Shown in pieces: positions 16,464 to 34,749 of a stretch of DNA of 64,000 bases. Source of the stretch: Pontiella agarivorans (lineage in GTDB: Bacteria > Verrucomicrobiota > Kiritimatiellia > Kiritimatiellales > Pontiellaceae); contig NZ_JARVCO010000012.1 of assembly GCF_034531395.1 (NCBI RefSeq), forward strand, positions 434,001-498,000, given 5' to 3'. The notes under the pieces were generated by a model that was given only the letters and a program-made list of their open reading frames with translations, was not told the origin of the DNA and did not search any database. Numbering within the stretch: position 1 is the stretch's first letter; each line of letters starts with the position of its first letter. A program made the position numbers and the translations under genes.

Positions 16464-16694
16464 ATGGCTTATAAAACAAAAGTACGGAAGATCGGCAATT
16501 CACTGGGCATCGTGCTGCCGAAAGAAGCGCTGCAGGCGATGAAGGTGGAAGAGGGCGCAACGCTTTATATTACGGAAGCTGCTGAAGGTGCGGTTCAGGT
16601 GACGCCTGAAGATAAGGACTTTCAGGACATGATGGAAATTGCTGAAAAGGGTATGCGCGACTACAGGAATGCCCTGCGGGAACTGGCTAAGTGA
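16464..16694 (+). CDS. AbrB/MazE-type antitoxin
   Basis: A 76-residue protein whose first 45 residues form a SpoVT/AbrB swapped-hairpin DNA-binding domain: KVRKIGNSLGIVLPKEALQAMKVEEGATLYI. The C-terminal part (from ~50) is charged and probably wraps the toxin. The stop codon overlaps the GTG start of the next gene (GTGA at 16691-16694), so antitoxin and toxin are translationally coupled. The antitoxin should both neutralise the Doc-like protein and repress its own promoter. AbrB-type antitoxins paired with Doc rather than with a PIN or MazF toxin are a known but less common combination. Confidence 0.9.
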   Translation: MAYKTKVRKIGNSLGIVLPKEALQAMKVEEGATLYITEAAEGAVQVTPEDKDFQDMMEIAEKGMRDYRNALRELAK

Positions 16695-17080
16695 ATCAAC
16701 CGCGATGGATTTCTGCCCGTGTAATCCATGCGGTGCATGAGGAGTTGCTTGCGCGGTTCGGTGGGTTGTCCGGCGTTCGCGACCAAGCTATGCTGGAGTC
16801 GGCCTTGGATCGTCCCAAAAATTCGTTTCATTATAGTGAGCCGACGATTTATTCGATGGCTTCGGATTATGCGGTTGGCATTGTGAAGAATCATCCCTTT
16901 GTTGATGGGAACAAGCGTACCGGCTTCATGGCAGCCTATATCTTTCTTATGGCAAATGGAAAAAAGTTTCAGGCCTCGGAAGAAAGTACGGTGTTACAGA
17001 CTCTGGCCCTGGCGGCCGGGGAGATCGACGGAACACCATATGCCGCGTGGCTGGAAGCCTCATGCGAGGCTCCCGAATAG
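16691..17080 (+). CDS. doc: Doc-type toxin (Fic/Doc, death on curing)
   Basis: A 129-residue protein beginning with GTG in a 4-bp overlap with the antitoxin gene. The Fic/Doc active site HPFVDGNKRTGF is at residues 68-79 and matches Doc's HxFxDANKR consensus, with the glycine variant seen in many chromosomal homologues. The N-terminal GLSGVRDQAMLESALDRP is also characteristic. Doc of phage P1 phosphorylates elongation factor Tu and stops translation. All catalytic residues are present, so the toxin should be active when the AbrB-type partner is lost. A cytosolic protein. Confidence 0.93.
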   Translation: MNQPRWISARVIHAVHEELLARFGGLSGVRDQAMLESALDRPKNSFHYSEPTIYSMASDYAVGIVKNHPFVDGNKRTGFMAAYIFLMANGKKFQASEESTVLQTLALAAGEIDGTPYAAWLEASCEAPE

Positions 17081-17351: not shown

Positions 17352-18308
17352 CTATTCGGCGATTTTATTCCAGAAGCCGAGGGGTTCCTGGGAGATGCGC
17401 CAGAAGGCGATGCCCTGCGTGGGGCGCGAGGCATAGAGGTCCATCTTGGCATTGAGCGACGGCATGGATTCAAAATGGACGTTAATGGTTACGTTGGTGG
17501 AGTAGGAATAACTTCCCCCGTTTTCGGAAGTGCTGGTGAGTTCGACGCCGCGTTTGCGAAGATCAGTCCAAACTTCGGGATTCCGCATGGCGGCGGTGGT
17601 TTTTTCTTTCTGCCAGGAGCGGCCGTAGAGCGGAATGCCCATGATCAGCTTTTCACCGGGGATGGTTGACGAGGCATAGTTGTAGATCCGGGTACACCAG
17701 GGCAGTGAGGCAATCGGGCCTGCGGATCCTCCGCGGTAGTGTTCGTCATAGGCCATCACGATGACGCGGTCGGCCACTTTCCCGATGAAGGAGTAATCGA
17801 ATGCATCCTGTGGATTTTTCTTTTTGTGATCGGCCCAGCGGGCCATGACGGCGACGCTGAAAAGTTTGTCTTCCGGTAAGGCCTTTTTGACGGCGACGAG
17901 GAATTTGAAATAGTTGGCGCGGTCTTTGGAGCTGATGGCCTCGAAGTCGATCTGCAGTCCGTCGAACGGTTGGCAGCGTTCCGTGATTCCATCGATGATG
18001 CGCTGTCGGAAGGGGAGTTCCGGGTCGAGATAGAGATGGGAAAGGGTGGTGCTCCAGGGCATGGTGATGACGAGGTGGTAGCGCGTTCCGGGATTTGCTC
18101 CGGAAAGACGGGGCGGTGTCTGGTGACCGCCGGTCAGGTTTCCATCCGGATCCACTGATGCACTGAAACAGCCGATATCGGTGATCGGAGAGGTGACAGG
18201 GAAATATTTTTCTTCGCCTTTCATCAGATAGGCCCAGGTTTCATTGAACCGGGCAGATGAGTTGGCGGCGATGCAGAGGGTGAGCAGTGTGAGTCTGATA
18301 ATATTCAT
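17352..18308 (-). CDS. secreted glycoside hydrolase family 18 protein
   Basis: A 318-residue protein with an N-terminal signal peptide (cleavage near NSSA, residue ~19) and a (beta/alpha)8 GH18 domain. The catalytic DxxDxDxE-type motif appears as FDGLQIDFEAIS at about residues 137-148, with the proton-donor glutamate. A later VIVMAYDEHYRGG strand and a final GIAFWRISQEP strand match the YaaH/SpoVG-linked subgroup of GH18, which acts on peptidoglycan or chitin-like glycans. No LysM or carbohydrate-binding domain is present. Monocistronic; the substrate could be the cell's own wall or external chitin. Confidence 0.85.
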   Translation of the reverse strand: MNIIRLTLLTLCIAANSSARFNETWAYLMKGEEKYFPVTSPITDIGCFSASVDPDGNLTGGHQTPPRLSGANPGTRYHLVITMPWSTTLSHLYLDPELPFRQRIIDGITERCQPFDGLQIDFEAISSKDRANYFKFLVAVKKALPEDKLFSVAVMARWADHKKKNPQDAFDYSFIGKVADRVIVMAYDEHYRGGSAGPIASLPWCTRIYNYASSTIPGEKLIMGIPLYGRSWQKEKTTAAMRNPEVWTDLRKRGVELTSTSENGGSYSYSTNVTINVHFESMPSLNAKMDLYASRPTQGIAFWRISQEPLGFWNKIAE

Positions 18309-18353: not shown

Positions 18354-21300
18354 TTATGCTGCGCCTGCTTTGGAGTTTTCATCGCCATTAGGGATAATGA
18401 TTTCGGACTTGGCCCGTTTGAAGGGGAAGGTCAGTGTGATGGCACTGATGCCGGCATCCCGCTGTTCGGTGCTGCATGAACCGCCGAGCATGGAGATATA
18501 TTTGCGGGCAAGCGTCAGACCATGTTTTATATCAACTGCACCTTCGGATTCTTTAGCGAAAATGCCGTCCAGCAGTTCATCGTTTACCTCTTCGGGCGTG
18601 TAGGCCAGCTCGAAGACAATGCTGAAGTTCTCCGAGTCGGAAGAGGTCCGGGTTACATGCAGGCCCATCCGGCCTTTACGGGTTTTCTTCAGTGCATAAC
18701 CCAGTAGAATCATGAGGATTTTCCGCATCTTTTCTTTATCCGTTACAACATGTTTCGGCACATTGTTGGAGGCCTGATATTGAGCGAAACTCAACGCGAA
18801 AAACAGTTTTTGCGCTTCTGCACGTGCCGTGTATTGCTGGTCGATTTCATTCAGCAGGGAGTGCAGGTCCAGATGATCCTCGTTAATCCGGCTGTCGCCA
18901 TGACTTAAAAGGTTGAGTTCGGCACGGTAGTTTAATGAATCAATCAGGCCGCGGCAGTTGCGGCCGGCATCGGCGATCTGATGCCGTTGTGCTTCGGAAA
19001 GGTTATTTGATTTTTCCAGTTGCTCGGCAGTTTCAACCACCGGTTCAAGTGAATCGTGAACCATGCCACTGAGTTCGTTGATCAGTCTTCCGTTGGTCTG
19101 GCTGACGGCCTTTATCTCTCCCCGCGATTTGTTGAGTTTCGTCTGATAGGTTTGTTCTGCATCGGCCAGTTTCTGTTTGGCCTCTTTCAGCCGTTCGGCA
19201 ATGTTGTGCTGTTCCTTATTCAGGGTATCGAGGGCTGTGTCGCGATTTTTAACGGTGGCTTCAGCCAGCTTCAGTTCCGTAATCAGGCCGACTTCTTTCT
19301 GTTTGGCATGTTCGACCTCTTGTTTAAGAGCATCGGTCTGTTTTTTAAGGAGTTCATCGCTGTCCTGTAAAGTGGCGCGCAAGGTGACCTCCAGCTCGCG
19401 CAGTTTCTTTTCGGCTTCATAACGGTGGTCGGTTTCCTCACGCAGGGCAGTGTTAAGTTTTTCAAATTCATCCTCGTGAGCTTTGATCCGGCCCTGAAGT
19501 TCTGTTTCGCGCTGGCGAAGCATCTGCTCGGACCGCTGAAGCCGTTTAATCTCGGCTTTGAGATCTCCGGTCTGCTGGGCAACAAGCCCTTTCTGGCTGT
19601 CATATATTTGCTGCATCTGGCTTTGTGCGGCTTTATAGGCGTCGACCACTTTTCGGTATTCTCTGGCGGCTTTTTTCAGTTCGCTGTTCCGGGTCTCCAG
19701 ATTTTTACCCAGCTCATTTTTCTCCACCATCAGACCTTCGATTTTCACCTTCATGTCCTGTGCGGCTTTTTCCATTTTCTCCAGCTGTTTCCGGAGGGCG
19801 GAGGTTTCGGAGGCCACCATTTTGGAACGGCTTCCCGAGAGCTGTTGCACTTCGGCCTGAGCTTCGTTCAGTTCCGCTTCGAGTTTCTGCTGTTGCCGGC
19901 GGGCTTTTTCCAAACTGTCATCACGCACATGAATCTGCTCTTCGAGTCGGGCTTTTTCCGCTTCGAGTTCATTTGCTTTTCTGCGGATTTTCACCTCACC
20001 CAGACGGATGTCGGCGATGGTCAGGTTCATTTTTTCACGTTCCTGATTCATCAGCTTCTGCTGTTGTTGAGAGAGCTGTTCCATCTTTTGCTCAATCTCA
20101 TTTTTCTCGCTTTCGGCTCCCTCGCGCGCCTGGAGCTGCTCCGCATAATCTTTGCTATTCTGGTTCAGCGTCCGTTCCAGCTCTTTGATCCGTTTTTCCT
20201 GGTCCTTTTCATGTTTCCGCATGGCTTTTTCGCGAATCTGCTTCTGGGCCAGTTCCTGTTTAATGGCCCGGGTCTCTTCTTCGAGTCGCTGGCCGAACTC
20301 TTTGCGCAGGGATTCCAGCTCGTTCATACTGTTGAGCAGTTTATTGGCCGCAGCCTTACGTTCAGTGACCTCTTCTTCGAGCTCCTGCGTGTGCTGTTCG
20401 GTCATGCGTTTCACCTGCTCCTGTGTGCTCTCGAGAAATTCCCGGGTGCGGGACAGCTGGTTTTCGGCTTTTTTCCGTCCGCTCTGCTCTGCTTCGAGCC
20501 CGGTCTGGTGCTGTGCATTCAGCTTTTCCAGCTCGCGTTCGTGCTGTTCTTCAATCTCCGCAAGCTGTCCGCGGAGTTTACTCAGTTGGGTCTGCATACT
20601 GCGCAGTTGATTTTCGCTGTCTTCGCGACGGGCGGTTTCCTGGGTATAGTGCTCTTTAATTTCGGCCAAGTTCTCTTCGATTTTTCGTAATTCATCTTCT
20701 TTGATCTGCAGCAGTTCCTCCCATTTCTTACGCTTATCGGTTTCGGTGTTCAGATCGTTCAGGCGTTTGGAAAGCTGTTCTTCGAGTTGCTGCTGCCGGG
20801 TAAGCAATCCCTGTTCACTGCGGCGGAGGCTTTCCTCCACTTTTCTGGTCTCGGCCAGCATGTGTTCAAACTCCTGTTCTCTGGAAGCCCGGCTGGTTTC
20901 AAATGTGTCCAGTCGGCTCTGTAGCTCTGCCAACTCAGTCGAATGCCGAGCATTCTGTTCTTTTTCATCGGCGAGCTCGTTCTGTGTATTGACGAGCCGG
21001 GTTTCCATGTTCATCCGCTCGTTCAGGGCATCTTCTTCACGGTTTTTATGGTCTGTGATACTGAAGGAGAGGCTGATCACGCCTTCAACCAGGCCGTCTT
21101 TGGAGACCAGCGGAATTTGGTTGTTTTCCATCCAGCCCTTCTGGCCCTGTGCATTAAACTGACGTTCGCACCGTTGCAGGGTTCCGGTTTTCATGGCCTT
21201 GATAGCCAGCACATCATAGTCTCTTGGAGCCCCCGGCATAATCTCGTATATGGTTTTGCCAACCCATTCCTCCTGGGAAATTCCGGTGCGTTCAGCCAGT

Positions 21301-22532
21301 TTTTTACTGGCATAGAGATACTGGCAGCGGGTGTCCTTGACCTGTACATCGGCTGGCAGTGAATCAATAATCCGTTGCAAAAACCGAATTCTGCTGTTGC
21401 GTTCGGCCAGCTCGCGTTTGCGGGAACTGATATCTCGCTGCATGCCCCAGATTCCCACCAGCTTTCCCGCCTCAACAATGCCTTTCACTTCATGGACGAG
21501 GTTGACGCGCGTGCCATTGGCGTCGAGGTGGACCGATTCAATGTTGACGGCCCTGAAATTATTACGCGCAAATTCTCTCAGCACATCCAGGGAGCGGAAC
21601 AGTCCGCAGCCATCCTTCATTTCGCCGATGGTTTTTCCCATCAGCTGATCCGGTGTGACACCGTAGAGTCCGGCAAAGGTTTGGTTACAGTCGCCCAGCA
21701 CCATGGTTTTCATGATTTTTTCAGCAATCCGGTCCGGATTGGAACCCATCGAAACAGGAGACTCCGGCACAAGGCGGTAGAATCCGGCGGAAGATGATAA
21801 CATAAAGTTTGCCATCCGGCGGGCTTCGGCCTCGCTGTCCTGGACCCTTTCCTGGAACGGTGTGATGTCGGTGACCCAGAAAATATAACTTTCAACATCC
21901 TTTCGTACATTACGTACCCGGCGGCCGCGACAGACAACGTGCGAGATGCGGTCGCGCGAGTGCCGGAAACGGAAACGATGTTCGAAGTCGGTTTCGTCCT
22001 GCTCGGCAAAGAGCTGCCAAGCTTCAATAAATTCGTCTTTGTCTTCCGGATGCACGGCGCTGTGGATACCTTCTTTCAGCGCTTTCTGGGGATACAGGCC
22101 CGACATCTCCTGCAGGGCCTGATTGATGTAAATGCATTTTCCGGAGTGATCGAGCTGGAACATGCCCGTGCCGGCCTCAAAGAGTATATCGGTGAAGCGG
22201 GAGTTCGTGGCCTTATGGCTGTTGATTTCCGCTTCAAGCTTTTCGTTGGATTCTGTGAGTCGGGTTCGGGTCACCGTCAATTCTTCAGTCAAACCGTCCA
22301 GTTCACGTTTTGTCGTTTTATAGCGCCGTTGAAACAACAGAAACATGGTCACTGCAATGATCAGCAGAACGCCGATAAAGAGATAGGATATAATGTTCAT
22401 CTGAAGGGGAATGATCAAAGCATCCACCTGCTGGGCCAGTCCCGTGCGGGGAAACAGCAGTATGCTGAACATCAGGGCTGCTCCGGTATGTCTCAATACT
22501 GTAGACCGCATTTGTGCTGAAAAAAGTTTCAT
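18354..22532 (-). CDS. membrane PAS/coiled-coil protein with degenerate histidine-kinase core
   Basis: A 1392-residue protein. The N-terminus has a signal-like helix and a second helix (around residues 45-65), then three PAS domains (~110-230, ~235-375, ~385-490). About 650 residues of nearly uninterrupted E/K/Q/R/L-rich coiled coil follow (~500-1150). The C-terminal ~230 residues resemble a histidine kinase: a DHp-like helix with NELSGMVHDSLEP, then an ATPase-like fold. Key residues are missing: the N-box reads LLGYALKKT where LLGNAxxFT is expected, the DxGxGI G1 box is absent, and only a GLTLARKYISMLGG remnant of the G2 region remains. ATP binding is therefore doubtful; it may be a pseudokinase or scaffold. 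A sigma-54-like promoter lies at 22577-22593. Confidence 0.8.
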   Translation of the reverse strand: MKLFSAQMRSTVLRHTGAALMFSILLFPRTGLAQQVDALIIPLQMNIISYLFIGVLLIIAVTMFLLFQRRYKTTKRELDGLTEELTVTRTRLTESNEKLEAEINSHKATNSRFTDILFEAGTGMFQLDHSGKCIYINQALQEMSGLYPQKALKEGIHSAVHPEDKDEFIEAWQLFAEQDETDFEHRFRFRHSRDRISHVVCRGRRVRNVRKDVESYIFWVTDITPFQERVQDSEAEARRMANFMLSSSAGFYRLVPESPVSMGSNPDRIAEKIMKTMVLGDCNQTFAGLYGVTPDQLMGKTIGEMKDGCGLFRSLDVLREFARNNFRAVNIESVHLDANGTRVNLVHEVKGIVEAGKLVGIWGMQRDISSRKRELAERNSRIRFLQRIIDSLPADVQVKDTRCQYLYASKKLAERTGISQEEWVGKTIYEIMPGAPRDYDVLAIKAMKTGTLQRCERQFNAQGQKGWMENNQIPLVSKDGLVEGVISLSFSITDHKNREEDALNERMNMETRLVNTQNELADEKEQNARHSTELAELQSRLDTFETSRASREQEFEHMLAETRKVEESLRRSEQGLLTRQQQLEEQLSKRLNDLNTETDKRKKWEELLQIKEDELRKIEENLAEIKEHYTQETARREDSENQLRSMQTQLSKLRGQLAEIEEQHERELEKLNAQHQTGLEAEQSGRKKAENQLSRTREFLESTQEQVKRMTEQHTQELEEEVTERKAAANKLLNSMNELESLRKEFGQRLEEETRAIKQELAQKQIREKAMRKHEKDQEKRIKELERTLNQNSKDYAEQLQAREGAESEKNEIEQKMEQLSQQQQKLMNQEREKMNLTIADIRLGEVKIRRKANELEAEKARLEEQIHVRDDSLEKARRQQQKLEAELNEAQAEVQQLSGSRSKMVASETSALRKQLEKMEKAAQDMKVKIEGLMVEKNELGKNLETRNSELKKAAREYRKVVDAYKAAQSQMQQIYDSQKGLVAQQTGDLKAEIKRLQRSEQMLRQRETELQGRIKAHEDEFEKLNTALREETDHRYEAEKKLRELEVTLRATLQDSDELLKKQTDALKQEVEHAKQKEVGLITELKLAEATVKNRDTALDTLNKEQHNIAERLKEAKQKLADAEQTYQTKLNKSRGEIKAVSQTNGRLINELSGMVHDSLEPVVETAEQLEKSNNLSEAQRHQIADAGRNCRGLIDSLNYRAELNLLSHGDSRINEDHLDLHSLLNEIDQQYTARAEAQKLFFALSFAQYQASNNVPKHVVTDKEKMRKILMILLGYALKKTRKGRMGLHVTRTSSDSENFSIVFELAYTPEEVNDELLDGIFAKESEGAVDIKHGLTLARKYISMLGGSCSTEQRDAGISAITLTFPFKRAKSEIIIPNGDENSKAGAA

Positions 22533-24185: not shown

Positions 24186-24914
24186 ATGAGCAGTGCAGAT
24201 AAAATTATGGTCTCCAAAGAAAACGGTCGTTTGCAACTTCCTTATAAGGATTATGTAGCGATCATGGAGAAGGTCAAAGAAGGCCGGCGGATGCGTGAGG
24301 TGAAGAATACTGTAATGGCCGATTTGAGGCAGGTGCTGGGGGGGGCCGTGGCTGCCGTCGAGGTTCAGAAGAAAGTCGCAGCAGCACGGAAGGATGTTTC
24401 GGCACAAGAACCGCAGAGCGATAAAGCGGCCGAAGCAGTTTCGGTTGAAGCCGATTCCGGTACACCGGCTGTCCGTCCGGGAGGCAGAGCCGCATCCGAG
24501 CGGGGGGGGATTCCGGAAGGTATGGCCGTACCGCCCATCAAAAAAGATATTTCTGTACACTTTAATAAACTCGATGAATCCGGCCGTCTGTTCAGTGTTT
24601 TTAAACAGTATTATGCTTTTCTTAATGATGCCTGCGGCGGAACCGTCCGGGTGACACTGAAAGACGGTATCTGCAGTCTGTGGAACTATGATGAGTGGGA
24701 AGAGTTTGCCTTTATCGATATTTATGAGAGGCAGCTGAGAATCTCGCTTGATCAGCGGTACACCGATGCACTGCAGTCGCTCAATCTGTGCGAAGTGCCG
24801 CGTCTGCTTTCAAGTCGATTGAATCTGGTCTGTGTCCAGGTCAACGACCTGAATGACACGATGCTCAAAGTCATGGCTAAAGCCTTCGAGGAGGTCGGCC
24901 TGACAGCAAGTTAG
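24186..24914 (+). CDS. unknown protein, first gene of sigma-54 operon
   Basis: A 242-residue soluble protein I do not recognise. Residues 1-50 contain a LQLPYKDYVAIMEKVKEG motif that resembles the short third protein of the operon. Residues ~55-115 are a low-complexity A/K/E/P/G linker. Residues ~120-242 look like a compact alpha/beta domain (SVHFNKLDESGRLFSVFKQY, then several strands and a C-terminal helix). Two runs of eight G residues lie in the coding sequence, at 24338-24345 and 24502-24509, both in the linker, where slippage would change the reading frame. The membrane-protein gene follows after 16 bp. No enzyme motif or signal peptide is visible. Confidence 0.75.
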   Translation: MSSADKIMVSKENGRLQLPYKDYVAIMEKVKEGRRMREVKNTVMADLRQVLGGAVAAVEVQKKVAAARKDVSAQEPQSDKAAEAVSVEADSGTPAVRPGGRAASERGGIPEGMAVPPIKKDISVHFNKLDESGRLFSVFKQYYAFLNDACGGTVRVTLKDGICSLWNYDEWEEFAFIDIYERQLRISLDQRYTDALQSLNLCEVPRLLSSRLNLVCVQVNDLNDTMLKVMAKAFEEVGLTAS

Positions 24915-24930: not shown

Positions 24931-25977
24931 ATGAATAAGAAAACAAACATCATAACGATTGTGGCTGCGGCCATAGTACTTGTGGCACTGAACGTGGGAG
25001 TGTTCATGGCTGCAGGAAGCGGTGCTGTTTCTCCGATCAACAACATTTTGTTGTGGGGCGGATTTGCGGTGCTGAATGTGGCGTCCATCCTCTGGGCCAT
25101 CACCTTGCTGGGTCTGCAGCCGCTCGTGGTAACATGCTCCTATGTTGCCGGCGGAGCGCTGGCCTACTTCGGCGTCCGGAATATGACGGAAATCAGCGTG
25201 GCAGAGATTACAACAGCCGGGGCAACCTACGGCGCGTTTGGAGCGCTGGCCGTTGGCAACGCCACAACAAAGGTGCGGCTGGCCTTTTTCAACAAGGGAC
25301 AGGTTCCGTTTATTTTTGTGATCATCGGTCTTTTGGTAATTGATGCCGGATTAAACAGCCAGGTTTCAAGGGCAGGTGTTTCGGTATTGCTCAATGTTGT
25401 TGCGCTACCGTTCATCGGGGCCGGTGTGGCCGTCGGTGCGGTATGGAGCATCATGAATAAATTCGGCATCGGGAAACGCGCAGCCGAAGTGCTGGTTGAA
25501 CGCGATGCTGCAATGGCGCAGGGGGCAACAGCTACAGGCGAAGATCAGATCGTCATCCCGATGCCTGAAACAGTACAGGCAGCGCCCGTCGAAAAGGTTG
25601 AACAAAAGCCGGTGATTGTTCCGGCCGTTCAAACCGCACCTAAGCGTAAAGCGAAGCCGGAGCCTGTTCGGGCCGAAACCGCTCCGGTTGAACCGAAAAA
25701 AGAAGAACCCTTTTTTCCGCTTGAACTTGATAAAGACGGGGAACCCAATCCCTCCGGGAAGGTTGACCCGCCGGAATTCGACATCCCCGTATTCGATGAT
25801 GCGCTTTATGCCTCCGGGTCGCAGGACGACAATGATATGGGCGGAGTTCTGGTCCAGGAGCCGGTGGTTGCAGAAAAGACTGTGGCAGCAGAATCCAAAA
25901 CCGAATCTGAAGAGGAAAAATTCGACATGGATGATTTCCTCGGGGGACACCTCGACCTGCTGAGCAAATTGAAATAA
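24931..25977 (+). CDS. unknown inner-membrane protein with acidic cytoplasmic tail
   Basis: A 348-residue protein with about six hydrophobic helices in the first ~185 residues (for example IITIVAAAIVLVALNVGVF and VPFIFVIIGLLVIDAG). A long hydrophilic tail rich in P, E, K and V (~190-348) ends in EEEKFDMDDFLGGHLDLLSKLK, which looks like a short amphipathic interaction peptide. The ribosome-binding site is AGGGAG at about 24919. It is the middle gene of the sigma-54-linked operon and presumably anchors the partner proteins at the membrane; that role is inferred from order only. I recognise no family. Confidence 0.75.
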   Translation: MNKKTNIITIVAAAIVLVALNVGVFMAAGSGAVSPINNILLWGGFAVLNVASILWAITLLGLQPLVVTCSYVAGGALAYFGVRNMTEISVAEITTAGATYGAFGALAVGNATTKVRLAFFNKGQVPFIFVIIGLLVIDAGLNSQVSRAGVSVLLNVVALPFIGAGVAVGAVWSIMNKFGIGKRAAEVLVERDAAMAQGATATGEDQIVIPMPETVQAAPVEKVEQKPVIVPAVQTAPKRKAKPEPVRAETAPVEPKKEEPFFPLELDKDGEPNPSGKVDPPEFDIPVFDDALYASGSQDDNDMGGVLVQEPVVAEKTVAAESKTESEEEKFDMDDFLGGHLDLLSKLK

Positions 25978-32019: not shown

Positions 32020-34749
32020 ATGAATGCAGTAGAAATTGAACAGGCGATCAGTGAACTGGCGGAGCTCCCTTTTGATGCGGCGGAGTTTCCGTATGCGTTT
32101 TTGACGGCCTTTGGAAACAAGGCGACGACGATTAAGCGGCTGCGGGCGGGTTCGACCAATAAATCCGATATCGGCGGGGTACTGCAGACGAATAACATCC
32201 ATTTGAAAATCTGCGAAAACGGGGCGGTTGATGAAACGCTGAAGGCCCTGCGCGAAAGTCCGGCCACGAAAAATGGCAAGGTGAAGTTTATTCTCGCCAC
32301 GGACGGCGAACTGTTCGCGGCGGAAGACCTTAATTCCGGGGATGTGATTTCCTGTGATTATAAAAAATTTCCGGATCATTTCGGCTTTTTTCTGTCGCTG
32401 GCGGGCATCAGCACGGTCCAGCAGATCCGCGAAAGTGCGTTCGATATCAAAGCCACGGGTCGTCTGAACCGCCTGTATGTTCAGTTGCTGAAAGACAACC
32501 CCGACTGGGGCGCGGCGGACAAGCGGACCGAAATGAACCATTTTATGGCGCGGCTGATTTTCTGTTTTTTCGCGGAAGATACCGATATTTTCAGACGCCC
32601 CGACCTGTTTACCGACACGGTGGAGCGCATGAGTGCGTCGGACGCCTCGAACACCCATGAGATTATCCAGGAATTGTTCCGCGCCATGAACACAAAATTT
32701 GAGGAACGCGAGATCGCCGGAATTGCGCGCTGGGCCAGGGAGCTGCCCTATGTCAACGGCGGGCTGTTTTCCGGCAGTATGGCCGTGCCGAAATTCACGC
32801 GCATTGCGCGTTCCTATCTGCTGCACATCGGAAGCCTGAACTGGAAAAAGATCAATCCCGATATTTTCGGGTCGATGATTCAGGCGGTGGCGGACGATGA
32901 AGAGCGCGGACAACTGGGGATGCACTACACCTCGGTGCCGAATATCCTCAAAGTGCTGAATCCGCTCTTTCTGGATGAGCTGCGCGAACAGCTGGCGGCG
33001 GCGGGCGACAATCCCCGTAAACTGATCAATCTGCGTAAAAGACTTGCTAAAATCCGCGTGTTCGATCCCGCCTGCGGCTCCGGTAACTTTCTGGTGATTG
33101 CCTATAAACAGATGCGCGAAATCGAGGCCGAAATCAATCGGCGGCGAAAAGAGCCTGAAAACCGCAGTGTGATTCCGCTCACCAACTTCCGCGGCATTGA
33201 GATCCGCGATTTTTCGGCGGAGATTGCGCGGCTGGCGCTGATTATTGCCGAATACCAATGCGACGTGCTTTATCGCGGCCAGAAAGAGGCCATTCAGGAT
33301 TTTCTGCCGCTGCGACGCGACAACTGGATCACCTGTGCCAATGCGCTGCAGGTTGATTGGTTGAGCATCTGCCCGCCGACCGGAACCGGCGTAAAACACC
33401 GCGCCGACGATTTGTTCCAAACTCCGCTCGATCAGGCCGAAATCGATTTTGAAAACGAGGGCGGTGAAACCTATATCTGCGGCAATCCGCCTTATATTGG
33501 AAGAAGGAATCAAGATAAGAAACAGAAGGCGGATCTAAAAGCGTTGTTAGCTTCCAAAGTTCGTTCGAGCGCGTCCTTGGATTACGTTTTTGGATGGCTG
33601 GAAAAGGCTTCGGACTTCATTGTCCAGCAGGGTGGAGAATTTGCTTTTGTAACAACAAATTCAGTAACACAAGGTACTCAAATTCCAATATATTGGCCGC
33701 ATCTTTTCTCAAAAGGACTCGAAATCACTTTTGCCCATCGCTCGTTTAAATGGTCAAACAACGCTGCTCATAATGCAGGCGTTACGGTTGTTGTTATCGG
33801 AGTTGGTACAACCAGGAAGGCTAAAAAAATATACGATGGAGAACTTGTTCAGGAAGTGGCAGAAATAAATCCGTACCTGTTGTCTGGCTCTGCCGTTGTT
33901 GTAACAACCGCAAGCAAACCAATTTCTCAAGTCCACAGAATGAACTATGGCAATCTACCTGGTGATGGCAATCATCTGTCTTTGTCTCAAAGAGAAAAGG
34001 ATGATCTTCTGCGACAGCATCCTGAGGTTGCAAAGCTTATTCTTCCTCTTTATGGTGCCCAAGAATTCATAAAAGGTCTAAAACGCTATTGCATATGGAT
34101 CGACGATGATGATCTGGAAATGGCACTTCGTGTGCCTGAAATTGCATCCAGAATTGAGAGAGTGAAGCAAACTCGTAAGGACAGCAAAGATCCAAGCTAC
34201 AATGCATTGGCTTCCCGGCCTCATCAATATCGAGACCGTAATCTTGCCGAAAGGCTTACCATTTTAGCACCTCAAGTTTCCTCTGAGTCTCGTGACTATC
34301 TTCCCACAACGGTAATAGAGGGACGAACAGGAACGACGAATCAAGCATTCGCCCTCTACGACGCGCCGCTGTGGAATATGGCGCTGATTGCCTCGCGCAT
34401 TCATCTGGTTTGGATCGCTACCGTTTGCGGGAAAATGAAAACCGATTTTCGCTATTCCAACACGTTGGGGTGGAACACGTTTCCTGTTCCGCCGCTGACG
34501 GAGAAGAACAAGGCGGATCTGACGCGCTGTGCGGAAAATATTCTGTTGGCGCGGGAAGCGCATTTTCCGGCGACGATTGCGGATTTGTATGCGCCCGACA
34601 AAATGCCCGAAAACCTGCGGGCGGCGCATGAGCAGAATGATGAGGTGCTGGAGCGCATCTACATCGGCCGGCGCTTCCGGAATGATACCGAGCGGCTGGA
34701 AAAGCTGTTTGAGCTCTACACGAAGATGACGGAGGGGAAGGATGGGTAA
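32020..34749 (+). CDS. class I SAM-dependent DNA methyltransferase (large, MmeI-like architecture)
   Basis: A 909-residue protein. The SAM-binding motif I, VFDPACGSGNFLVIAY, is at about residues 347-362, and the catalytic NPPY motif of an N6-adenine (gamma-type) methyltransferase is at 488-491. A helical region (~150-345) precedes the catalytic domain, and the part after NPPY should contain target recognition. I see no PD-(D/E)XK motif in the N-terminal 150 residues, so this copy probably only methylates. Codons ~495-775 (33500-34350) are roughly 40-47% GC in most 60-base blocks I counted, against about 60% on either side, suggesting an exchanged recognition domain. It is the first gene of a defence-type cluster with a helicase and a GIY-YIG nuclease downstream. 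Target sequence unknown. Confidence 0.92.
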   Translation: MNAVEIEQAISELAELPFDAAEFPYAFLTAFGNKATTIKRLRAGSTNKSDIGGVLQTNNIHLKICENGAVDETLKALRESPATKNGKVKFILATDGELFAAEDLNSGDVISCDYKKFPDHFGFFLSLAGISTVQQIRESAFDIKATGRLNRLYVQLLKDNPDWGAADKRTEMNHFMARLIFCFFAEDTDIFRRPDLFTDTVERMSASDASNTHEIIQELFRAMNTKFEEREIAGIARWARELPYVNGGLFSGSMAVPKFTRIARSYLLHIGSLNWKKINPDIFGSMIQAVADDEERGQLGMHYTSVPNILKVLNPLFLDELREQLAAAGDNPRKLINLRKRLAKIRVFDPACGSGNFLVIAYKQMREIEAEINRRRKEPENRSVIPLTNFRGIEIRDFSAEIARLALIIAEYQCDVLYRGQKEAIQDFLPLRRDNWITCANALQVDWLSICPPTGTGVKHRADDLFQTPLDQAEIDFENEGGETYICGNPPYIGRRNQDKKQKADLKALLASKVRSSASLDYVFGWLEKASDFIVQQGGEFAFVTTNSVTQGTQIPIYWPHLFSKGLEITFAHRSFKWSNNAAHNAGVTVVVIGVGTTRKAKKIYDGELVQEVAEINPYLLSGSAVVVTTASKPISQVHRMNYGNLPGDGNHLSLSQREKDDLLRQHPEVAKLILPLYGAQEFIKGLKRYCIWIDDDDLEMALRVPEIASRIERVKQTRKDSKDPSYNALASRPHQYRDRNLAERLTILAPQVSSESRDYLPTTVIEGRTGTTNQAFALYDAPLWNMALIASRIHLVWIATVCGKMKTDFRYSNTLGWNTFPVPPLTEKNKADLTRCAENILLAREAHFPATIADLYAPDKMPENLRAAHEQNDEVLERIYIGRRFRNDTERLEKLFELYTKMTEGKDG

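Follow-up and report, generated by a model that had tools for sequence, protein, structure and literature searches.

We analysed a 64,000-nucleotide stretch of the Pontiella agarivorans genome (the window; NCBI RefSeq assembly GCF_034531395.1, contig NZ_JARVCO010000012.1, positions 434,001 to 498,000) and in it the gene P0001. By its sequence, the product combines PAS domains, a long and regular coiled coil, a histidine kinase fold without catalytic residues, a conserved length and an invariant tail. We consider it moderately probable that P0001 is a membrane-anchored, probably dimeric sensor scaffold, whose end domain would act as a non-catalytic docking module of the DivL or RetS kind, carried on a strut. 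As far as searched, no published description was found of the combination of pseudokinase and coil, of the 39-residue rod or of the tyrosine replacements, although pseudokinases and coils are each known; within that search, papers on pseudokinases or coiled coils in Pontiella or Kiritimatiellales did not describe the P0001 protein. In a little-studied phylum, a whole family has lost all three catalytic signatures, yet its fold, rod length and rod repeat are under selection.

Kinase fold, catalytic positions and family

An AlphaFold2 (AF2) model of the last 264 aa was examined. It adopted a DHp-CA fold with a pLDDT of 83.4, in agreement with an earlier note on this DNA, in which the C-terminus had been described as shaped like a histidine kinase. 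Foldseek matched the model to GacS (E 5.9e-14) and RetS (E 8.9e-14). VIA-align gave Z scores of 20.4 for GacS (root-mean-square deviation 4.2, 236 residues aligned), 18.5 for RetS (3.9, 214) and 18.4 for DivL (5.0, 221). Both lists consisted mostly of ordinary kinases, and the absence of other folds from them is uninformative. In a profile search with the C-terminal domain, the best match was RetS at 6.4e-23, with DivL at 1.2e-10. P0001 scored 16.3 bits against HATPase_c (18.9 bits for the C-terminal part alone), below the Pfam cut-off of 26.4, and the gene was absent from the 58 HATPase_c matches of its own genome at E<=0.001. Across the family, 19 of 20 members matched HATPase_c at E<=1, the best at 3.1e-7.

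The catalytic positions were read in an alignment of 20 family members with kinases of the same genome, five of which (L001-L004, L007) were usable as controls. The acceptor column was free of His in all 20 members; the residues there were Glu, Asp, Gly, Thr or Arg, mostly Glu or Asp, with Gly1156 in the window protein. Its sole nearby His, H1159, lies three residues further on and is replaced by Gln, Asn, Arg, Cys or Thr in other members. The N-box Asn was changed to Tyr in 18 members and to His in two (the window protein reads GYALKK against GNAxKF). Tyr took the place of the G1 Asp in 19 members and Phe in one, and no DxGxG was found in the window protein. The five control kinases kept H, N, G1 and G2 in that alignment. 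A strict-pattern motif scan of both strands for eight own-genome kinases detected four boxes in L001, L003, L004 and L007 and two in L008; it detected nothing in L002, L005 and L006, although L002 has all boxes in the alignment.

The earlier note had proposed a pseudo-histidine kinase that lacks the N-box Asn and the G1 box. Both losses were confirmed, and the proposal is strengthened by the loss of the acceptor His, which had gone unnoticed: all three residues are replaced in 20/20 members with the DHp-CA fold kept. Judging from their positions, Tyr1279 and Tyr1311 probably fill the nucleotide pocket, exclude ATP and stabilise the fold in its empty state. The consensus segment before the N-box, KLFFAVSFAQYQAANNVPK, was strongly conserved within the genus and may serve as a surface for docking or oligomerisation.

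Across 58 genomes searched, orthologs turned up in the genus itself, in one further genus of its family and in a sister family. The C-terminal-domain profile matched 22 of the 43 genomes of the order Kiritimatiellales, with one member each (E<=3.3e-67; next matches at ∼1e-30), and three more genomes (G002, G027, G028) contained the N-terminal part only, giving a single-copy family in 25 of 43 genomes. The G028 copy is cut by a contig end. The G027 copy (L059, 8481-11573 (-)) is truly shorter, a natural truncation that ends after ∼1031 aa in an unrelated tail; its PAS domains and some of the rod remain, the end of the rod and the kinase fold are missing, and the promoter-like element of the GH18 gene described below comes straight after it, intact. 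The gene was not detectable in 10 of 14 sister-family genomes. In a 387-genome sample of the phylum, all 10 strong matches fell inside Kiritimatiellales and no family member was found outside it. Four weaker matches ranged from 1e-35 to 7e-33; the two that were read (L143, 1.0e-35; L144, 4.7e-33) proved to be hybrid kinases of the ordinary kind, with every box in place. A contig scan with the single protein found nothing, and the same scan with the alignment gave 13 loci.

The closest relative of the window protein is 80% identical over residues 360-1392. The ratio of nonsynonymous to synonymous substitution rates (dN/dS) between the two was 0.10 in PAS3, 0.09 in the rod, 0.13 in DHp and 0.20 in CA, and the DHp-CA domain is held by purifying selection. 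We concluded that the observation is beyond chance, since 22 one-per-genome orthologs share the same C-terminal domain under such selection.

Rod periodicity, rod length and C-terminal tail

The rod measured 631 residues between conserved anchors, without a single proline; the earlier note had correctly seen a long coil and put it at ∼650 residues. Its hydrophobic stripe showed one sharp period of 3.545, equal to 39/11, with a power of 57.2 vs. a maximum of 10.9 in 300 shuffles, and self-similarity peaked at lags of 78, 156, 39 and 234. The 39-residue unit is four heptads plus one hendecad (28+11). The period was 3.539-3.548 in all 14 aligned orthologs and 3.536-3.549 in the long Pro-free coil stretches of sister-family and second-genus members; the sister-family rods (L055, L056, L057, L058) differ greatly in length and have the same 39/11 period. 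The signal is not a property of any coil: SMC coils of the same genome had a period of 3.50 and a power of 1.1-1.2 at 39/11. The phase of the stripe was steady from ∼670 to 1130, with the first 170 rod residues drifting and partly nearer to plain heptads. As far as searched, the literature gave no description of a 39-residue repeat in coiled coils. With its regular 39/11 periodicity, the rod offers a model from nature for the design of coiled coils that supercoil little.

Length was measured from GWME (PAS3) to LFFA (before CA) in 14 sequences. L054 (assembly gaps) and L050, L059, L060, L061, L062 and L063 (split or incomplete) were left out, as were the sister-family members, which lack the anchor used. 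The distance was exactly 777 residues in 9/9 sequences (the window protein and L039-L046), although the rods of eight of them (L039 excepted) are only 38-65% identical. Alignment of the window rod with each of seven orthologs gave no gap opening over 4391 aligned residues at 47% identity, as against four gap openings in PAS1-3 and five in DHp+CA in the same pairs; all 28 pairs of the eight rods had two gap openings in total. Other members measured 858 (three) and 825 (one) residues, all four with an extra PAS near the rod end. Two longer lineages, L052 (873) and L051 (937), lie within the 777 group: in the tree L051 falls inside the group that contains the 777 members and L052 belongs to the same unresolved group, together with L059 and L062, which are incomplete and therefore unmeasured. 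L051 owes its extra 160 residues to two blocks, of 82 and 78, which look like tandem duplications. Length is thus kept in the 777 group while sequence diverges, but not across clades (825-937) or in the sister family. By default, rod length is conserved; two-unit duplications altered it in one lineage or more.

The last residues were Gly-Ala-Ala in 18/18 genus members, after a linker variable in sequence and length. None of the three sister-family members whose C-terminus is complete has this ending; in the fourth, the contig stops before the gene does. A constraint at the DNA level was rejected, since all three codons vary synonymously. Such conservation is not ordinary either: among ten neighbour genes checked, one had an invariant last triplet (queA, LIL, 8/8), and queA differs in that all of its last six residues are invariant, in contrast to the variable linker of P0001. 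According to the cited part of PMC9601184, C-terminal Ala-Ala forms the core that ClpX recognises in the SsrA tag, and this feature was present in all 18 genus members. The genome encodes an AAA_2 protein whose length (424 aa) fits ClpX, putatively ClpX itself. We hypothesize that Gly-Ala-Ala is possibly a ClpX-type degron.

Candidate roles and known systems

In the sensor scaffold that we favor, the N-terminus would anchor the protein in the inner membrane and the three PAS domains would receive a cytoplasmic cue. The coiled coil would keep the dead DHp-CA domain at a defined distance and pass the state of the PAS domains along its continuous stripe. The tip would no longer phosphorylate; it would instead bind a response regulator or a second kinase as docking partner, as in DivL or RetS. 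The Gly-Ala-Ala end may be a short linear signal (possibly a degron of the ClpX type) through which the protein level is controlled. Action as a scaffold or a ruler is inferred. A straight rod of ∼90 nm directed away from the membrane, as drawn in the earlier note, is an assumption; 631 residues span ∼94 nm if straight, at 0.1485 nm per residue.

To our knowledge, well-studied bacterial histidine pseudokinases are few, and DivL of Caulobacter, a membrane-anchored protein, is the main example. Like P0001, DivL (PDB 4q20) has tandem PAS domains and a DHp-CA part without kinase activity in which the acceptor His is replaced; in the cited part of its description, the acceptor site of DivL is occupied by Tyr, and the N, G1, F and G2 boxes are all retained (PMC4211667). 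In the P0001 family, most members carry Glu or Asp at this site (the window protein carries Gly), N and G1 are lost, and a 631-residue rod separates PAS from DHp. The features of a DivL ortholog (Tyr or Ala at the acceptor with N, G1, F and G2 kept) were not found in the family. RetS of Pseudomonas carries a seven-transmembrane sensor and has receiver domains after its kinase region, whereas the Pfam scan of P0001 found neither (no receiver at E<=1). Structures of RetS are available (PDB 6dk7, 6dk8, 7n0e), and by the title of entry 7n0e its kinase-like region is in complex with the GacS DHp. The N-box Asn of RetS is present in the profile alignment, unlike that of the P0001 family, for whose C-terminal domain RetS is the best profile match.

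Long coiled coils also occur in FrzS and AglZ of Myxococcus. These proteins offer a two-component parallel to P0001, with a receiver that lacks the phosphorylation site and takes part in the polar organisation of motility (PMC1974792, in the part cited). They have a receiver instead of a kinase and no PAS, and the likeness is one of description. The actinobacterial rods Scy and FilP resemble P0001 in their very long coils and non-heptad periodicity; in the excerpt of PMC9858780 used here, Scy is almost all hendecads with Ala-rich cores, vs. 28+11 = 39 and a period of 3.545 in the P0001 rod. The DivIVA domain of Scy/FilP-type rods was not found in the Pfam scan of P0001. As in the coiled-coil rulers WbdD and ROCK (PMC5082667, cited in part), the coil of P0001 could set the distance from the membrane to the kinase-like domain. 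WbdD and ROCK carry active enzymes according to the same part of that source, whereas the end domain of P0001 is dead.

Several observations weigh against the scaffold. The G2-like GLTLAR and the CA fold are retained, so weak nucleotide binding is possible, and CA is the least constrained part of the protein (dN/dS 0.20). The gene was not detectable in 8 of 28 genus genomes, one of them 94% complete; together with L059, which lacks the C-terminal domain, this indicates that both the tip and the gene are dispensable. No partner was found, and the scanned neighbours included no lone receiver or second kinase. AF2 of residues 480-1175 predicted helices at 481-726, 811-941 and 958-1174, separated by low-confidence breaks at 727-810 and 942-957. 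We hold the first break to be an artefact, without proof, because the stripe crosses it in phase and because AlphaFold is reported to produce spuriously bent coil models (PMC11676326, in the part cited). As for the degron, the third-last residue is Gly and not Leu, the genome's own tmRNA tag ends in ALAA, and the sister family has no Gly-Ala-Ala.

The constant rod length could be given more weight than the tip. The rod would then be a functional fixed-length spacer that holds something away from the membrane at a constant distance, or the builder of a layered array, for which chemoreceptors with their length classes are an analogue, and the kinase fold would only cap and dimerise it. We regard this as rather unlikely, although much of the rod data points that way: the 777 residues shared by nine sequences, the gapless rods of seven pairs and the 39-residue phase lock lend real support to the length-measuring device suggested in the earlier note, and the tandem duplication in L051, a rod as constrained as PAS3 (dN/dS 0.09 vs. 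0.10) and the truncated L059, which has lost the tip but still has PAS and some of the rod, agree with it. However, lengths differ between clades (777, 825, 858, 873, 937) and strongly in the sister family, and a strictly phased coil resists indels anyway. Constant length is therefore suggestive of a ruler and not proof, because strict phase alone disfavors small indels, and the interpretation given in the earlier note is partly supported overall. A pure spacer should also drift, yet rod residues 721-870 were conserved as strongly as the PAS domains, which suggests binding sites on the rod. A bolder proposal, which we would advance only tentatively, is a new class of cytoplasmic strut in bacteria, a membrane-anchored dimer in which a fixed-length rod of 39-residue units, extended at least once during evolution by two-unit blocks, a tyrosine-plugged and permanently nucleotide-free docking tip and a degron for control of protein amount would together form the spacer of a membrane-associated assembly in Kiritimatiellales. 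The exact length in diverged orthologs makes distance measurement by a coil in bacteria directly testable.

Returning to the tip, the CA fold and the G2-like GLTLAR, both kept under purifying selection, would also be expected of a divergent kinase or phosphatase that works through other residues, such as a phosphatase of the DHp helix or tyrosines stacking on the nucleotide base. With acceptor His, N-box Asn and G1 Asp missing in 20/20 members, this is very improbable; the phosphatase motif has Thr or Asn four residues past the His, and that position was not conserved in the 20-member alignment. Still harder to credit is a former kinase that is being lost and is kept by neutral drift. The frameshift splits of L039 and L050, the truncation of L059 and the eight genus genomes without the gene would fit such decay, but the splits are likely due to sequencing error, because each is close to a short homopolymer and queA is split as well in L039. 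Decay is largely refuted by dN/dS values of 0.09-0.20; the same substitutions occur in two families, and 17 ortholog open reading frames are open over 1369-1759 aa (two of them, L046 and L056, touch a contig end). Finally, P0001 may be the cytoplasmic sensor of a cell-envelope programme, with the tip controlling a locus that includes the secreted-looking upstream protein and GH18, or their products. The order upstream protein, pseudokinase, GH18 is kept on one strand in most genus loci, whereas GH18 has a promoter-like element of its own and gave no BLAST match in four sister-family loci. We consider such a programme doubtful, and it is compatible with the docking scaffold, not exclusive of it.

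Domain layout and neighbouring genes

Coordinates are given in Table 1. Pfam confirmed the three PAS domains claimed in the earlier note; PAS_4 matched in three stretches (E=1.2e-24), and the sister-family members L055, L056, L057 and L058 have further PAS-like stretches after PAS3. The hydrophobic segment at residues 46-68 is preceded by a signal-peptide-like start and followed by the basic QRRYK, in a reading of the sequence rather than by a topology program. The parts beyond this anchor would lie on the cytoplasmic side.

Table 1. Positions of P0001, its parts and its neighbours in the window
Feature	Position	Strand	Basis
Pseudo-histidine kinase gene P0001, 1392 aa	18354..22532	(-)	Frame open for 1392 codons; orthologs
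Hydrophobic segment, likely transmembrane anchor, residues 46-68	22329..22397	(-)	Read off sequence
PAS domain 1, residues 119-223	21864..22178	(-)	Pfam PF00989
PAS domain 2, residues 276-369	21426..21707	(-)	Pfam PF13426
PAS domain 3, residues 390-495, best conserved part of the protein	21048..21365	(-)	Pfam PF08448; conservation
Coiled-coil rod, residues 500-1130, 631 aa, no Pro, 39/11 periodicity	19143..21035	(-)	
DHp-like helical hairpin, residues 1131-1215, without phosphoacceptor His	18888..19142	(-)	
CA-like domain, residues 1216-1375; N-box Asn = Tyr1279, G1 Asp = Tyr1311	18408..18887	(-)	
Invariant C-terminal Gly-Ala-Ala, residues 1390-1392	18357..18365	(-)	Synonymous codon variation, neighbour-gene control
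GH18 family protein, 318 aa, downstream neighbour	17352..18308	(-)	PF00704 E=1.5e-24; synteny
Promoter-like element TTGACA-N17-TACCGT, few bases before GH18 start codon	18315..18343	(-)	Conserved
Upstream neighbour, secreted-looking, family-less, 423 aa	22734..24005	(-)	Conserved

Among the 25 fetched loci (L039-L063), several of which stop short of the neighbour positions, the upstream neighbour was present in 14 and GH18 in 16. The element before GH18 was found at the same place in L039-L046, L048, L049, L051, L052, L054, L059 and L063, and an mRNA started from it would have almost no leader. In several loci the -10 is flanked by an inverted repeat that varies in sequence, with arms of 11-13 bp in L039, L041, L042 and L043; in others the repeat is weak or absent. 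We do not claim a hairpin there, as the complementarity is suggestive in some loci and absent in others. The exact motif TTGACA-N16-18-TACCGT was rejected as a common promoter of the genome, with only two matches in 4.4 Mb.

A short Fic-domain gene (16691-17080 (+)) lies between purE and GH18. It occupies the same place in L040 and L043 and had no BLAST match in the other fetched loci. Beyond the upstream neighbour, a divergent gene pair (24186-24914 (+) and 24931-25977 (+)) is conserved in genus loci, without a Pfam or NCBIfam family over cut-off. The product of the second gene has several hydrophobic segments at its start and a proline-rich part. Further along the window, an MmeI-like restriction-modification protein is encoded at 32020-34749 (+), with methyltransferase, target recognition and C-terminal domains.

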